This document shows positions 16,890 to 32,570 of a stretch of 49,874 nt of DNA, piece after piece. The notes beneath the pieces are model-generated. The model worked only from the letters and a program-made list of their open reading frames with translations, was not told where the DNA came from and did not search any database. Every line of letters begins with the position of its first letter. The stretch's first letter is position 1. The stretch spans positions 1 to 49,874 of the forward strand of contig VEPN01000020.1 in assembly GCA_012026835.1 (NCBI GenBank), given 5' to 3'. Position numbers and translations under genes: made by a program. Source of the stretch: Candidatus Methanoperedens sp. (GTDB lineage: Archaea; Halobacteriota; Methanosarcinia; Methanosarcinales; Methanoperedenaceae).

Positions 16890-18827
16890 CTATACCTGCA
16901 TAGGCGGCAACAGGGCTGATATCGGTTTTACCTCGAAATCGTTGTTCATGGAGTCCTCGCCCTGTTCGAGCATTATGTTCATTACAGGTGAGGTAATTGG
17001 AATATATCCCTTTGGCAATTTCTCTATTATGATATATCTGCCTGCCGGGAGATTATTGAATTCCCACATGCCTGTAGAATCGGTCGTTGTCTCCATTTTG
17101 ATTGACCGGGTATCCATGCCCATGCCTACAATGCCTACCAGTCTGATTTCGACATTCGGTATACCCATACCTGTGGCGACATCGACCACTCTGCCTGAGA
17201 TGCTGCCGTTTTCAGTTGGTACAGGCTTTGTCAGGGCAAAGTTCACGGTAGTTGTTGTGTTGGGTGCCACAGCTACACCTGTTACTGTTTTGTCCTCGTA
17301 TCCGGCTGCGCTCGCTGTCACAGTATATGTGCCCGGGGCAATGGTTATGCTGTAGTTGCCGCTGGCATCAGTGGTTGCCATCTTGCTGTCTGCTGTTACT
17401 GTTGCTCCAGCTATTGGTAAGCCTGAAGAGGCATTGGTCACCATGCCTGCGATTGTGCCCGTTTCATTTGTTACAATCTTTGTCAGGGCAAAATTCTGGG
17501 TGGTTGTCTTGTTGGCCATCACAACTACACTTGCTGGTACGCTGCTCTGGTATCCGGCTGCGCTCGCTGTCACAGTATATGTGCCCAGGACAACGGTTAT
17601 GCTGTAGTTGCCGCTGGTATCAGTGGTTGCCGTCTTGTTATCTGCCTTTACAGTCGCTCCAGCTATTGGTGAGTTCGATGAGGCATCGGTCACCTTGCCT
17701 GCGATTGTGCCCGTTTCAACTTGTACTTTCGGTGTCAGGGCAAGGTCCTGAGTAGTTGTCTCATTGGCCATCACAACTACACTTGCTGCTTTGTCCTCGT
17801 ATCCTGTTGCGTTCGCTGTAACGGTGTAATTACCTGGTGCAATGGTTATGCTGTAATTGCCAGTGTTATCAGTGGTTGCAGTCTTGCCATCCGCTGTTAC
17901 AGTCGCTCCAACTATTGGTGAGTTTGAAGAGGCATTGGTTACCTTGCCTGCGATTGTGCCTGTTCCAGGGATTATTATAGTGGGCGTCAGGGCAAAGTCC
18001 TGGGCATTTGTTGTGTTAGCTGTTACAATCACATCAGTTACTGTTATGTTCTCGTATCCAGCAGCGCCCGCAGTTACATTATATGTACCTGGTGCAATGG
18101 TTATGCTGTAGTTACCGCTGGCATCGGTGGTTGCCGTCTTGCCGTCTGCCTTTACAGTCGCTCCGGATATTGGTAGGTTTGAAGAGGCATTGGTCACTAT
18201 GCCTGCTATTGTACCAGTTTCGGGCGGTGCCACTGTCGTCACATTCCAGTCCCATGTCTGCATTGCAGAACCGTCGCCGGCTTTCTGTGCAACTGCGGTC
18301 ACATTATGCAGGGCTGCCACACTTGTTGTTACAGCGAAATTGGATGCGCTCACGGAAATTTCGGTCTTCTGTACGTTCCCATCAAGGATCCAGGTTATAG
18401 TAGCTACAACCTGATTAGCCACGATGCTGAAAGTCCTTGTGGCCGGAGTTCCTGTGTCACTCACGGGTGTAGTTGGTGAGAAGCTGACTATCTTGGGCGG
18501 GAAGTCACTCACATTCCCGGGGAATGTCAGGTTGTGGATTTCGTCGATGTTGCTAAACCCATCTCCATCCGAGTCTAAAGGCTCTATTGTGGCAAAGTTA
18601 TGATTGTTGCTTCCGAAGGCAGCGCCATATAGATTCCTGTCTGTACTTCCTCCGATTCTGGGATCACCTTGATGGCAGAGAATGCAAGTATCGATCCTTG
18701 TGCCCACAGCAGAAGGATATGTTGTGTTGAAATTATTCAGATAGCTTGAAAGTGCCGCCGCCTGCGGTACTCCCATTATAGCTACTACTGTTAACAGCAG
18801 TAGCATATATGTTAATTTTCGGTTCAT
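16890..18827 (-). CDS. Exported monohaem protein with repeated carboxypeptidase-regulatory-like domains
   Basis: This 645-residue protein has a signal peptide (cleaved near AAALSS, residue 26), one c-type haem site CILCH at 48-52, and a calcium-binding-like DSDGDGFSN at 85-93. An Ig-like stretch follows. From about residue 205 come four beta-sandwich repeats of roughly 85 residues, each with GTIAGKVTNASSNSPIAGAT and TTDASGNYSIT, and a fifth, divergent one (GSISGRVVDV). No C-terminal membrane helix or sorting signal is seen. It is thus an extracellular haem head on an extensible stalk, perhaps in the S-layer or matrix for electron transfer. The start follows AGGAGGTAAATAG. A hairpin terminator ends it. 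Confidence 0.75.
   Translation of the reverse strand: MNRKLTYMLLLLTVVAIMGVPQAAALSSYLNNFNTTYPSAVGTRIDTCILCHQGDPRIGGSTDRNLYGAAFGSNNHNFATIEPLDSDGDGFSNIDEIHNLTFPGNVSDFPPKIVSFSPTTPVSDTGTPATRTFSIVANQVVATITWILDGNVQKTEISVSASNFAVTTSVAALHNVTAVAQKAGDGSAMQTWDWNVTTVAPPETGTIAGIVTNASSNLPISGATVKADGKTATTDASGNYSITIAPGTYNVTAGAAGYENITVTDVIVTANTTNAQDFALTPTIIIPGTGTIAGKVTNASSNSPIVGATVTADGKTATTDNTGNYSITIAPGNYTVTANATGYEDKAASVVVMANETTTQDLALTPKVQVETGTIAGKVTDASSNSPIAGATVKADNKTATTDTSGNYSITVVLGTYTVTASAAGYQSSVPASVVVMANKTTTQNFALTKIVTNETGTIAGMVTNASSGLPIAGATVTADSKMATTDASGNYSITIAPGTYTVTASAAGYEDKTVTGVAVAPNTTTTVNFALTKPVPTENGSISGRVVDVATGMGIPNVEIRLVGIVGMGMDTRSIKMETTTDSTGMWEFNNLPAGRYIIIEKLPKGYIPITSPVMNIMLEQGEDSMNNDFEVKPISALLPPMQV
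17205..18215. repeat. Tandem DNA repeats encoding beta-sandwich domains
   Basis: Four consecutive units of about 250 bp inside the haem/surface protein gene share long near-identical stretches, for example GCGCTCGCTGTCACAGTATA in two copies and GCTGTAGTTGCCGCTGG in several. Such similarity at DNA level implies recent expansion or gene conversion. Boundaries are approximate. Confidence 0.7.
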
Positions 18828-19268
18828 CTATTTACCTCCTAAATTTTATTCTTTAATCTGTTCCCCTATGCTGTACAAATCAGATTTGTAACAACATTCT
18901 TATTGAATTTGTGTCAGCATTGGTATAAACATAGCGAGATTTTTCTGAATTTTTTTGATTTTTCAGAGTTTCTTATCGTTTATTTCAGTTTTCTGTGACT
19001 TTTAATTTCTTTTTTTCAATTTTTAGCATATACTGTTTATTTATTATAGATTTTTCCAGCTATGTGTTACCGCTTGGCGCACTTGCCATGTCATATGAAG
19101 ATTACCCCCTGTGCGCCTGGATTTTTTGAACTGCAGATAAATGTTATAATCCATCCTTTAAGAAGGTTTAAGAAATAGAGGCATATGTTTTTACCATATG
19201 CCATTATCATATTGTTCTCATATTGGAATTCGTATATATTATATTAAGATTTCACCGGATTTAAAACC
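18828..19268. other. 441-bp intergenic region with promoter and structured element
   Basis: The AT-rich gap lies between two minus-strand genes. Near 18927-18935 the minus strand reads GTTTATACC, a plausible TATA box for the haem/surface gene about 100 bp ahead of its start. Further from the gene, 19035-19125 holds the third member of the inverted-repeat element described separately. I see no credible open reading frame in the rest. Confidence 0.5.
19035..19125 (-). promoter_or_regulatory. Third copy of the surface-gene inverted-repeat element (divergent, short)
   Basis: On the minus strand, GGCGCAC (19111-19117) and GTGCGCC (19076-19082) enclose a 28-nt loop opening AGGG and ending TGGCAA; AAGCG follows the stem and AAAAAATCC precedes it. 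The copies before the genes starting at 29738 and 32132 have the same skeleton with the stem GATGCAC/GTGCATC, so the stem differs by paired changes (AT to GC on both sides). On the plus strand the T6 after the stem resembles a terminator. A weaker outer pairing, CCAG/CTGG, is also present. It lies over 200 bp from the next gene start, so it need not be part of that gene's leader. Confidence 0.5.
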
Positions 19269-28511: not shown

Positions 28512-29738
28512 TCAGTATATGACCTGCAGATCACCTGAAGTCAGTGTGCCCGATTTATGGTAATTCTTGGCAGGGATAGAGATATCGAATGTATCTTTAC
28601 TTACATACGGTGATGCCGGTTGTCCACCATCCTTGACATTAACTACAAAGTCGTATGGACCTTCATTGTTGAACATCGCCTTTCCTTTTATCTCTCCTGT
28701 CTTCGGGTCTGCATTCTTGTTGGTCTTAACCGAGTTTATCTCTGTGGCCACGATCCTATTGCCTTCATTGTCTTCAGTCTCTACCGTGCCTTTCGGCATG
28801 AACTTGGTGAATGCAAAGATCTTAAAGGTCAGTTCCGGAGCTACCTTGTTGCCCAAGGTTCCCCATCCGACTACCTTGCAGCGGTCTTTACATCCTTCTG
28901 GCGGAATGACATTTACTGTTGTCTGTGCCATTTCGGTTGGGAACTGAGGTGGGGCAATGTCGATATCAATTATTCTGCCATCTACAATCGGGTTACCATG
29001 ACCAGTAGCCGTATTTGTGGTGTTAGCGGTTATAGCCGCTGTGCACTCATACTTCCATGATTCACCTGGATTAAGTAAACCATCGTTATTAGTATCACCG
29101 CTCTTGAAAGTTACTGGCGAACACTTATCATCATCCACTCTAACATTGGTAAGATTCACATTTCCGGTGTTTGTTTCAGTATATGTGTAGGTGACTGTTT
29201 CACCTGGCGCCACGTTAGTTTTATCCACTGTCTTTGTCAGTTTGCTGTTGGGGCTGATGAGAGTAATTTGTCTTGAGAAACTCTGTTGATCTGTTACGCC
29301 ATTTTGCGGATTGACTAATTCAAGTCTGATTACAAACTCATATATGGCATTAAGTGGAGCTGTTTCCTTAACTTTAATTGTAGTTAGTTTAGGATCTTTA
29401 TAAACATCTGCACCAAGACTTTGGAAATCTGTTTTTGGATTCACGACCTGACCATTCAACGCAAGACTATCTCGTGTTATTTCCAGATCGTTTGGATTTC
29501 CTGCTGTGATTTCTACGGTGAATTTGTAATCTAATCCTTGATCAACGTACAGTGAATTCAAATTTGCCTGAAAATTGCCTGAAATGCTGTCTCCTGGTAT
29601 TTGGATTTCGATCAATTGAACAGGGAACGGTTGATTGGTCGCTGGGTTAATTAAAACTAAATCACCTGCTGAAGCTATTCCTGTCAAAGCAACCATCACT
29701 GCAAGTAATGCAACAACAGTTGTAATTCTACGTTTCAT
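28512..29738 (-). CDS. Exported surface protein with post-COAP-like C-terminal domain
   Basis: The 408-residue protein has a signal peptide (to about residue 24), a beta-rich N-terminal region, a DUF11-like domain (LTKTVDKTNVAPGETVTYTY, TNTGNVNLTNVRVDD), and a C-terminal domain of about 120 residues beginning KVVGWGTLGNKVAPELTFKI that resembles the post-COAP type. That last domain is nearly identical to the C-terminus of the 599-residue protein at 30333, as are the terminator and the element before the start. DUF11 domains are common in archaeal surface proteins. There is no anchor, so it is secreted or held by partners. The start follows GGAGTGATAAATAAAT. Confidence 0.75.
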   Translation of the reverse strand: MKRRITTVVALLAVMVALTGIASAGDLVLINPATNQPFPVQLIEIQIPGDSISGNFQANLNSLYVDQGLDYKFTVEITAGNPNDLEITRDSLALNGQVVNPKTDFQSLGADVYKDPKLTTIKVKETAPLNAIYEFVIRLELVNPQNGVTDQQSFSRQITLISPNSKLTKTVDKTNVAPGETVTYTYTETNTGNVNLTNVRVDDDKCSPVTFKSGDTNNDGLLNPGESWKYECTAAITANTTNTATGHGNPIVDGRIIDIDIAPPQFPTEMAQTTVNVIPPEGCKDRCKVVGWGTLGNKVAPELTFKIFAFTKFMPKGTVETEDNEGNRIVATEINSVKTNKNADPKTGEIKGKAMFNNEGPYDFVVNVKDGGQPASPYVSKDTFDISIPAKNYHKSGTLTSGDLQVIY

Positions 29739-29773: not shown

Positions 29774-29889
29774 GGTGCGTTTACCTTCCGGTAAGGCTCA
29801 CCCTCCGGCTGCCTTATATAGCGCCCACCAAGCGCTTGATGCACTTACCACCCAACCCTTACGGGCAAACCCCCATGCATCTCGGATTT
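29774..29889 (-). promoter_or_regulatory. Surface-gene inverted-repeat element, copy 2
   Basis: On the minus strand: AAAAAATCCGA, stem GATGCAT (29875-29881) with GTGCATC (29838-29844); inside it CCC-GTAA-GGG; then a hairpin AGCGC/GCGCT (29820-29836), a central TATATAAGG, a hairpin TAAGGC/GCCTTA (29792-29816), and AGGTAAAC (29779-29786), which can pair back to GTTTGCCC (29863-29870). The element ends about 36 bp before the start codon. TATATAAGG could be the actual TATA box (initiation near 29785-29790), in which case most of the dyads are DNA sites; if transcription starts further up, this is a folded leader. Confidence 0.6.
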
Positions 29890-30073
29890 TTTAATATGTG
29901 GTTTGACGAAAAAAATCTCCACGATTAGCATTATGGACATGAATCATGCAATTTGTTTCTTTTTTTATTCCTCCTTTGTGACCTCCCTCGCAAACCCTTT
30001 TGTCACAAACATATGGATCACCACTACAGAGAGATATTTTAAATTATAACAAGGATTCAAGAGATTCCATCAT

Positions 30074-30105
30074 TTAAAAAACATTAAGGAGTGACAATAT
30101 TTGCT
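30074..30105. promoter_or_regulatory. Conserved surface-gene box, copy 2
   Basis: TTAAAAAACATTAAGGAGT at 30074-30092 differs by one base from 26791-26809. It lies about 185 bp beyond the inverted-repeat element of the same gene. Confidence 0.5.
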
Positions 30106-30285
30106 ATTAATACATAGAATTAGCATGTGATACGAACATATGATTTTGTTGGTATTATAAAAAATTATAGATATTAAATATTAATTTTTAAAAAATGCAC
30201 AGAGTTATTTATTTGAGGAATATCCAGATATTTATTACAGAAAATAGGATTATCCAAAATACCTCTTTTAATTTATAGCTTTATT

Positions 30286-30314
30286 AAAAAATAAAAGAGG
30301 GATTTCTATCCCTC
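30286..30314 (-). terminator. Terminator of the 599-residue surface gene
   Basis: GAGGG-ATAGAAAT-CCCTC followed by TTTTATTTTTT on the minus strand, 19 bp after the stop codon. Near-copy of 28465-28493. Confidence 0.75.
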
Positions 30315-30332
30315 AAACTTTATTCAACTGAC

Positions 30333-32132
30333 TCATTTTATGACTTGCAGATCACCTGAGGTCGGTGTGCCCGATTTATGGTAATTCTTGGCAGGGATAG
30401 AGATATCGAATGTATCTTTGCTTGCATACGGTGATGCTGGTTCTCCGCCATCCGTGACCATAACTACGAAGTCATATGGACCTTCATTGTTGAACATCGC
30501 CTTTCCTTTTATCTCTCCCGTCATCGGGTTTACTGTCTTATCGGTTAACACCGAGTCTATCTGTGTGGCTTTTATCTTATTGCCTGCGTCGTCTTCAGCT
30601 TCTACAGTGCCTTTTGGCATGAAGTTACTATATGCCCAGATCTTGAATGTCAGTTCCGGAGCGACCTTGTTGCCCAGGGTTCCCCATCCAACTACCTTAC
30701 CTGGCTTTAATTCTTCTGGCTTTTTGTTGCCGAAGTCTATGCCTGTCACAATTTGTCCTGCTGAGAGTGTCACTGTATGGGTTCCTGGCACTGCCGGGAA
30801 GGTCTGTATCCAGCCTGCCTGCAGGGTCTCTGATACGGTATAGGTGCCTGGCGGCAGATCCTTGAATGAATAGTCGCCATTTGCGTCTGTCTGAGTCGTT
30901 TCAGTAGATCCGTCAGGTTTTGTCAGTGTGATTGTCCAGTTAGCAAGTCTTGGTTCAGTCGCACCCTTTATTCCATCACCATTGGTATCATTCCACTTCT
31001 GGCCTGAGATACTACCATTTGGTATTAGTTGATTACCGAAATCTCTATCTACTACATTCTGTCCGCCTGCGAGATTTACAGTATAAGTTCCTGGCGGTAC
31101 TGGTGTTGGTGCTGTCTGTTTCCAGCCTGCCTGCAGTGTTTCTGATACGGTATAGGTGCCTGGCAGCAAATTCGTGAATGAATAGTTGCCGTTTGTGCCT
31201 GTCTGAGTTGTCTCAGTAGATCCATCAGGCTTTGTCAGTGTGATTGTCCAGCCCGAAAGTCTTGGTTCATTTGCGTCTTTTATTGCATCACCATTGAGAT
31301 CGTTCCATTTCTGGCCTGAGATACTGCCATTCTGTATGTTGGCGAAATTCAGACCTGTGGCATCATTTGTATCTACGGTCACGGTATGTGTTCCTGGAGG
31401 CACTGGTTGAGGTCCTGTCTGTGTCCAGCCTGCCTGAAGTACCTCTTCAACAGTAAAGGTGCCTCGGAAGCCCAGGAAATCCGTCCCAATAACAGCTCCG
31501 GTGGAGTCAGTAATGTTTACCTGTTCTCCTTTGAATGAATAATTTCCATTTTGATCCGTGAGAGTCGTAGCTACTACAGTACCGTTTTCATCTCTCAAGT
31601 TGATCGTCCAACCAGCAAGTCCGGGTTCTCCTTGGCCGCATATTCCACTACCATCGAGGTCATTGCATTTCTTGCCTGTGATAATTCCACCTTGTAGTAC
31701 TATAGTTCTTGATGCTTGTGATGGAAGGTTGGGATTCAAATAAGAGACAAAATACTGATAAATTGTCCCGGCTTGTCTTGAGATAGGTGCATTAACTTCT
31801 ATCCTTGCTGAATCATCTTGGGTAGATGTTGGAGTTGAAGTTACTAAGAAAGTATCCTTGAGTGTTGTAAAGTTGACATCTGCTGCATTGCAATTAGCCG
31901 CCGGCTGACAATTAGTAAATTGTATAGCCAAAGGATAATTTGTGTTTAGCTCCGTTGAAAGAATTGAAGTTAACCTAACACCTATGTTAAATGCATCATG
32001 ATTCTTAACTAAAATTGGTTCACCCAATACTTGTCCATCTCTTAAAAGTTCTTGGCTTACCGCCGACGCTGCTCCTGTCAGCGCAACCATCGTCGCAAAT
32101 AATGCAGCAATGGTCAATAATTTATGTTTCAT
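30333..32132 (-). CDS. Exported surface protein with SdrD-B-like repeats and post-COAP-like domain
   Basis: The 599-residue protein has a signal peptide ending at ASAVSQ (about 25), a unique N-terminal beta region, three SdrD B-type repeats (GSISGQKWNDLNGDAIKD, GTYTVSETLQAGW), the first more divergent (ITGKKCNDLDGSGICGQGEP), and a C-terminal post-COAP-like domain starting KVVGWGTLGNK, shared with the 408-residue paralogue. The DxNxDG loops of the B repeats usually bind calcium and stiffen the rod. Thus the two paralogues keep the leader, signal and C-terminus and differ in the middle. The start follows AAAGGAGAGATAATAT. No membrane anchor. Confidence 0.78.
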   Translation of the reverse strand: MKHKLLTIAALFATMVALTGAASAVSQELLRDGQVLGEPILVKNHDAFNIGVRLTSILSTELNTNYPLAIQFTNCQPAANCNAADVNFTTLKDTFLVTSTPTSTQDDSARIEVNAPISRQAGTIYQYFVSYLNPNLPSQASRTIVLQGGIITGKKCNDLDGSGICGQGEPGLAGWTINLRDENGTVVATTLTDQNGNYSFKGEQVNITDSTGAVIGTDFLGFRGTFTVEEVLQAGWTQTGPQPVPPGTHTVTVDTNDATGLNFANIQNGSISGQKWNDLNGDAIKDANEPRLSGWTITLTKPDGSTETTQTGTNGNYSFTNLLPGTYTVSETLQAGWKQTAPTPVPPGTYTVNLAGGQNVVDRDFGNQLIPNGSISGQKWNDTNGDGIKGATEPRLANWTITLTKPDGSTETTQTDANGDYSFKDLPPGTYTVSETLQAGWIQTFPAVPGTHTVTLSAGQIVTGIDFGNKKPEELKPGKVVGWGTLGNKVAPELTFKIWAYSNFMPKGTVEAEDDAGNKIKATQIDSVLTDKTVNPMTGEIKGKAMFNNEGPYDFVVMVTDGGEPASPYASKDTFDISIPAKNYHKSGTPTSGDLQVIK

Positions 32133-32165
32133 ATATTATCTCTCCTTTATTTTTTATTTTATTTC

Positions 32166-32282
32166 GGTGCATTTGCCCTTCAGTAAGGCTCACCTACGGC
32201 TGCCTTATATAGCGCCCACCTGGCGCTTGATGCACTTACCACTCGACCCTTGCGGGCAAATCCCTGTGCATCTCGGATTTTT
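32166..32282 (-). promoter_or_regulatory. Surface-gene inverted-repeat element, copy 1
   Basis: On the minus strand: AAAAAATCCGA, stem GATGCAC (32266-32272) with GTGCATC (32229-32235) enclosing CCC-GCAA-GGG, hairpin AGCGCC/GGCGCT (32211-32227), TATATAAGG, hairpin TAAGGC/GCCTTA (32184-32207), and GGGCAAAT (32171-32178) that is a perfect partner of ATTTGCCC (32254-32261). The terminal ATGCAC (32167-32172) could also replace the first strand of the main stem, so two exclusive folds exist. In copy 2 the long-range pair changes from A-T to G-C at its end, keeping the pairing. It ends 34 bp before the start codon. Confidence 0.6.
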
Positions 32283-32570
32283 TAAGACGTGGTTTAAATA
32301 AAACATAATCATCAATTGTATATTAAAGATATAAATATAATAATTATAAAATATTTTTCGAGCCCATGTACCATGCAGTTCATACTCCCCATTTTCCCTT
32401 TCATTGTCTGTGCTCCCTGATGATATTCGTTTTTAATGATTAACTATGCCTTGGAAAAGATTATCTATCTTCTGCAATCGATTATTACCCGATTTTTCCT
32501 CCTTTTCCAGTTCCCATGCCTTTTTAGTATTTATTCAAACAACTTCATAGCATTATTGTAATTACATACA

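Follow-up and report, generated by a model that had tools for sequence, protein, structure and literature searches.

A pseudoknotted leader RNA ahead of surface-protein genes as a candidate riboswitch of methane-oxidizing archaea

Riboswitches for bacterial second messengers characteristically control scattered, outward-facing target genes, and the genes that follow the element described here are likewise scattered and outward-facing in Methanoperedens. To our knowledge, archaea have only a small number of known riboswitch classes, and no described RNA class has the core architecture of this element. Like the c-di-GMP-I, c-di-GMP-II and 3',3'-cGAMP riboswitches, it is a leader found ahead of a scattered set of genes for surface, adhesin-like, peptidase and haem proteins, but it has no Rfam match and GGDEF enzymes are rare in its hosts. 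With the preQ1-II, SAM-II, fluoride and THF riboswitches it shares a compact pseudoknot near the ribosome-binding site, yet its sequence and helix order differ and Rfam again gives no match. Archaeal protein-binding leaders, as in ribosomal protein autoregulation, are likewise structured 5' leaders controlling translation (as proposed for the element), but the element's targets are mostly unrelated secreted or surface proteins rather than the regulator's own operon. The TPP and fluoride (crcB) riboswitches are classes reported in archaea (PMC2864571); the element resembles them as a riboswitch-like leader in archaea but is unrelated in sequence and structure, and its targets are not thiamine or fluoride genes. 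Rfam 15 has no match at the gathering cut-off in the window (the whole stretch of 49,874 nucleotides analysed), and at E up to 5 none of 4227 families lies over the element in the window or in 19 loci, so that the earlier note's statement that it matches no known class holds against this database. The literature searched, which did not cover a 2017 survey of 224 candidate RNAs, contained no riboswitch study of ANME archaea or Methanoperedens and no riboswitch class described for ANME archaea. On these two grounds, we call the element a new RNA class, a cis-regulatory, riboswitch-like leader.

The window (contig C32) belongs to an archaeal genome of 3.3 Mb that encodes a seryl-tRNA synthetase of the archaeal/methanogen type and cytochrome-like proteins, and the same element is also found in congeneric records named Candidatus Methanoperedens. 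The features are as follows (CM, covariance model):

32227..32295, minus strand: copy 1, full RNA core of 69 nt (CM R2, 87.0 bits, E 1.7e-22 in the window), in the order H1 5' strand, A-rich joiner, H2, pseudoknot 5' strand in the H2 loop, H3, H1 3' strand, pseudoknot 3' strand
32212..32226, minus strand: hairpin P4 of copy 1 (GCGCC-AGGTG-GGCGC; alignment A7)
32185..32206, minus strand: second hairpin of copy 1 (AAGGC..GCCTT), in long forms only (alignment A7)
30333..32132, minus strand: downstream gene 1, a secreted surface protein of 599 aa with SdrD_B/SpaA-like domains (Pfam, NCBIfam)
29836..29904, minus strand: copy 2, full RNA core of 69 nt (CM R2, 86.8 bits, E 2e-22 in the window)
29821..29835, minus strand: hairpin P4 of copy 2 (GCGCTTGGTGGGCGC; alignment A7)
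29793..29815, minus strand: second downstream hairpin of copy 2 (alignment A7)
28512..29738, minus strand: downstream gene 2, a paralogous surface protein of 408 aa with a DUF7507/DUF11 domain (Pfam, NCBIfam)
19074..19139, minus strand: copy 3, a decayed relative (CM R2, 23.1 bits, E 5e-4 in the window, 0.033 in the whole genome; genome-wide range over the CM searches, 0.002-0.03)
16890..18827, minus strand: gene after copy 3, 645 aa, with CarboxypepD_reg repeats and a haem-like CxxCH motif (Pfam, N-terminus read)

The two long copies that the earlier note had placed before paralogous surface genes are thus present, on the minus strand, and share 87% identity across ~140 bp (BLASTN). Both retain H2, H3 and the pseudoknot in full, together with 6/7 pairs of H1. 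Their earlier boundaries fell short by about 13-15 nt at the RNA 5' end (32283-32295 and 29890-29904), which is where the H1 5' strand AAACCAC lies. The gaps from core to ATG are 94 and 97 nt (ATGs at 32132 and 29738), equivalent to 34-36 nt from the boundary drawn earlier. The copies are only 2.4 kb apart, which duplication with the gene explains, as both precede paralogous genes. Copy 3, counted before as a short third copy, is related in sequence and keeps 7/7 pseudoknot pairs (GGCGCAC/GTGCGCC) with two compensated changes (A-U to G-C, U-A to C-G). However, the per-copy pair status shows H1, H2 and H3 mostly lost, and we therefore read it as decayed; the next ATG is 246 nt away. Outside the window, the same genome has a fourth full copy at C63:8188-8256 (BLASTN, CM).

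In the 5' to 3' direction of the minus strand, the core runs AAACCAYRC-TTTAAAA-AATCCGA-GATGCAC-GGGGATTTGCC-(variable hairpin)-GGGTAGTGTGGTAA-GTGCATC. The alignments give good support to a predicted three-way junction of H1 (ACCAYRS/SYRTGGT), H2 (AAATCC/GGATTT) and the variable hairpin H3, and to a putative pseudoknot in which the H2 loop GATGCAC would pair with the 3' tail GTGCATC just past H1. RNAalifold recovered H1 (ACCAYRC with GYRTGGT) and H2 (AAATCC with GGATTT), and with these two helices in place the 7-bp stem becomes a pseudoknot rather than an ordinary P1. The earlier note had thus rightly seen that this stem changes in sequence while pairing is kept, but the stem is the pseudoknot, and H1 and H2 had been missed. 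H3 sits between H2 and the H1 3' strand and carries inserts of ~20-50 nt in several Methanophagales and other copies. At the last pair of H1, Methanoperedens mostly has C-G while most other lineages have G-C, and the single-stranded positions A13-15, G22-A23, G32 and A60 are strongly conserved. Two weak core matches stand in tandem in one genome (G039:C1:174788-174845 and 174858-174950) and might form a double-aptamer leader. Many Methanoperedens copies (L040, L029, L025, L170, L169) have a GGTGG(T) segment ~40-90 nt before AAACC, often followed by AAAAAACG, that could compete with H1 or mark the transcript 5' end.

The first alignment was drawn from BLASTN over 31 congeneric genomes, with matches in 19 of them and 28 usable copies. 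A total of 106 matches was then aligned by a CM containing the pseudoknot stem and H3 only, with H1 and H2 not used in fitting. On this alignment, the full structure pairs 92.8% of cells compared to 27-49% when slid, at least one copy has a two-sided change for 23 of the 24 pairs, and double-changed cells number 181, whereas shuffles give 57 and slid structures 24-48. Own-strand pairing exceeds whole-strand swaps across 110 distinct rows for H1 (z 12.9), H2 (11.5), the pseudoknot (9.2) and H3 (3.2); covariation support for H3 is weaker than for the other three, which exceed swaps also within Methanoperedenaceae alone and within other lineages alone. Seven of the top 10 covarying column pairs fall in the structure (hypergeometric p 8e-13). 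A home-made, R-scape-like, phylogeny-aware null that pools all column pairs, and that is conservative and takes its tree from the 69-nt element itself, leaves the top pair as the only significant one (E 0.017). The minus strand has 290 G-U cells compared to 67 A-C cells (which would be wobbles on the opposite strand), and this excess argues for selection on a minus-strand RNA, on the same strand as the downstream genes.

The covariance-model search of related genomes that the earlier note had proposed yielded further copies well beyond the genus. The core occurs in 23 of 34 genomes of the family and in 55 of 186 genomes of the order, spread over 15 of 27 genera; of the 238 genomes of the class, a second CM found it in 57, every one within the window's order. 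Carriers in the order comprise Methanoperedens, ANME-2, Argoarchaeum and relatives, and a few methanogens, and those further afield in the phylum include ANME-1 (Methanophagales) and, in an evenly drawn sample, families f10, f20 and f37. Named carrier records are Methanoperedens, ANME-2 cluster, ANME-2c, Argoarchaeum/GoM-Arc1, Methanosarcinales and Methanophagales. Exact-pattern matches in Streptomyces, Chthonomonas, Hydrogenedentes, Micrococcales and Anaerolineales fail the CM and were treated as chance. Strong copies are also found on contigs labelled Desulfobacterales and WOR-3 (L096, MAXP01000058.1; L124, JAGLZA010000136.1), which are probably mis-binned archaeal DNA.

For 85 of 116 distinct copies, a same-strand open reading frame with Shine-Dalgarno sequence and ATG begins no more than 120 nt downstream, compared to none of the 116 on the opposite side and 5.6% of random positions. 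The element is thus a conserved structured domain ahead of a gene, as expected of a riboswitch, and is presumably transcribed as a leader. Its downstream families include SdrD_B/SpaA, Big_1, choice-of-anchor L, PKD, and papain-like and subtilase peptidases, besides di-haem peroxidase/MauG, bacterial globin, DUF1326 and FMN reductase; both full-copy targets in the window end in a post-COAP-1-like domain. By a crude hydropathy test, which is not a signal-peptide predictor, a hydrophobic N-terminus is present in 41 of 47 downstream proteins of Methanoperedenaceae, and 16 of 51 elsewhere, the latter similar to the 20 of 76 among controls. The target genes point to no single metabolite, and that they are mostly unrelated fits a signal-responsive regulon. 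Truncated globins, DUF1326 proteins and di-haem peroxidase-like proteins follow several copies (L024, L170, L040, L029, L015, L033). Such targets hint that part of the regulon may respond to a signal related to redox state, NO or haem.

Distances from core to ATG cluster at about 16-28, 48-60 and 74-97 nt. The first cluster comprises the short forms, the second has a single hairpin P4 (GCGCC..GGCGC), and the third, with a further hairpin, comprises the long forms, to which copies 1 and 2 of the window belong. A downstream hairpin below -5 kcal/mol is found in 52 of 63 medium or long leaders, and in short forms the pseudoknot 3' strand ends 4-25, mostly 8-15, nt ahead of the Shine-Dalgarno sequence. 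Medium and long forms show no covarying alternative pairing between core and platform or between platform and Shine-Dalgarno sequence, and short forms gave one marginal, uncorrected p of 0.02 among nine tests. The long-range pairing ATTTGCCC/GGGCAAAT proposed earlier does exist in both window copies, but it does not covary in a set of 28 long-form relatives (own -5.39 versus swapped -5.42 kcal/mol, p=0.52), failing the same test that H1, H2, H3 and the pseudoknot pass. Partition-function folding, which does not include the pseudoknot, gives a Shine-Dalgarno accessibility of 0.48-0.58 when free versus 0.58-0.68 when constrained, with no clear shift between the two states. A TATA scan upstream of the core peaks at -100..-80 and -40..-30, with similarly high peaks in the reverse-strand control.

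We consider it almost certain that the element is a cis-acting structured RNA, and its role is probably that of a sensor-like core in a structured mRNA leader working as a riboswitch, a step that we infer. The core would be transcribed with the minus-strand genes as part of the mRNA leader, where a small molecule or ion could stabilise the junction and pseudoknot; the stabilised fold would alter ribosome access to the Shine-Dalgarno sequence and so set translation of the next gene, on or off. This sequence lies 8-15 nt downstream in most short forms and behind one or two hairpins in longer ones. Given how close the pseudoknot 3' strand comes to it in short forms, pseudoknot formation could block the ribosome. 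Only tentatively do we go further and propose the first riboswitch class found chiefly in archaea that oxidize methane anaerobically (ANME-1, ANME-2, Methanoperedens and their close relatives). Such a class would respond to a signal inside the cell, which might be a nucleotide second messenger or a redox or metal cue, and would set how far adhesin-like surface proteins, peptidases and haem/redox proteins are translated.

Among the readings that the earlier note had set side by side, a structured leader RNA is strongly supported by covariation, strand and position, although the strand is the minus one and the architecture differs from that described earlier. Very improbable is a promoter whose operator dyads flank TATATAAGG, a motif that resembles an archaeal TATA box and is present in both window copies: the motif is unconserved in relatives (TATACAAGG, TATACAGGG and others), short forms that lack it still have the core directly ahead of a Shine-Dalgarno sequence and ATG, and it would place the transcription start at or near the Shine-Dalgarno sequence, while the strand-asymmetric G-U tolerance is not expected from DNA dyads. 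Four copies in one genome, two of them close neighbours, could also recall a MITE-like mobile repeat. This is scarcely credible for copies that stand in one orientation ahead of start codons rather than independently of genes, covary at paired positions, span several families of the phylum, and were matched neither in viral contigs by exact pattern nor in plasmids or phages by BLASTN. A stem followed by TTTTTT on the plus strand had suggested a small RNA ending in T6, but this T-run simply complements the conserved A-rich joiner, G-U pairing favours the minus strand, and the element's position is tied to minus-strand gene starts, which leaves such a small RNA next to impossible.

A different question is whether the leader binds a ligand or a protein, in which case a conserved archaeal RNA-binding regulator would recognise the pseudoknotted junction and, acting in trans, repress or activate translation. 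Many unrelated targets without a common metabolite and no covarying alternative pairing speak for such a regulator, whereas the strongly conserved single-stranded positions and the compact pseudoknot resemble ligand-binding aptamers, and no candidate protein was identified. We regard a protein-binding leader as unlikely, if well short of negligible, and lean towards a ligand-binding riboswitch over it.

As to the ligand of such a riboswitch, GGDEF enzymes are found in just 4 of 186 genomes of the order compared to 55 with the core, which makes a GGDEF-made molecule (c-di-GMP or GGDEF-made cGAMP) unlikely as a general ligand. The DAC domain of c-di-AMP synthases is nearly universal (178 of 186) and does not discriminate, so that c-di-AMP gains no support either way; the element matches no c-di-AMP riboswitch model of Rfam. 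It offers a definite target for ligand hunting, and its copies in methanogen-like relatives within the order (G079, G170) may permit tests in tractable organisms. A widespread, well-conserved leader RNA provides a handle on surface-protein control, and possibly on consortium formation, in uncultured methane oxidizers, and if it is indeed a riboswitch of these archaea, their outer surface and partnerships would be tuned through RNA. Most Methanoperedenaceae genomes, G000 and other Methanoperedens genomes among them, have 2-5 DAC domains, and nearly all other Methanosarcinales have one.
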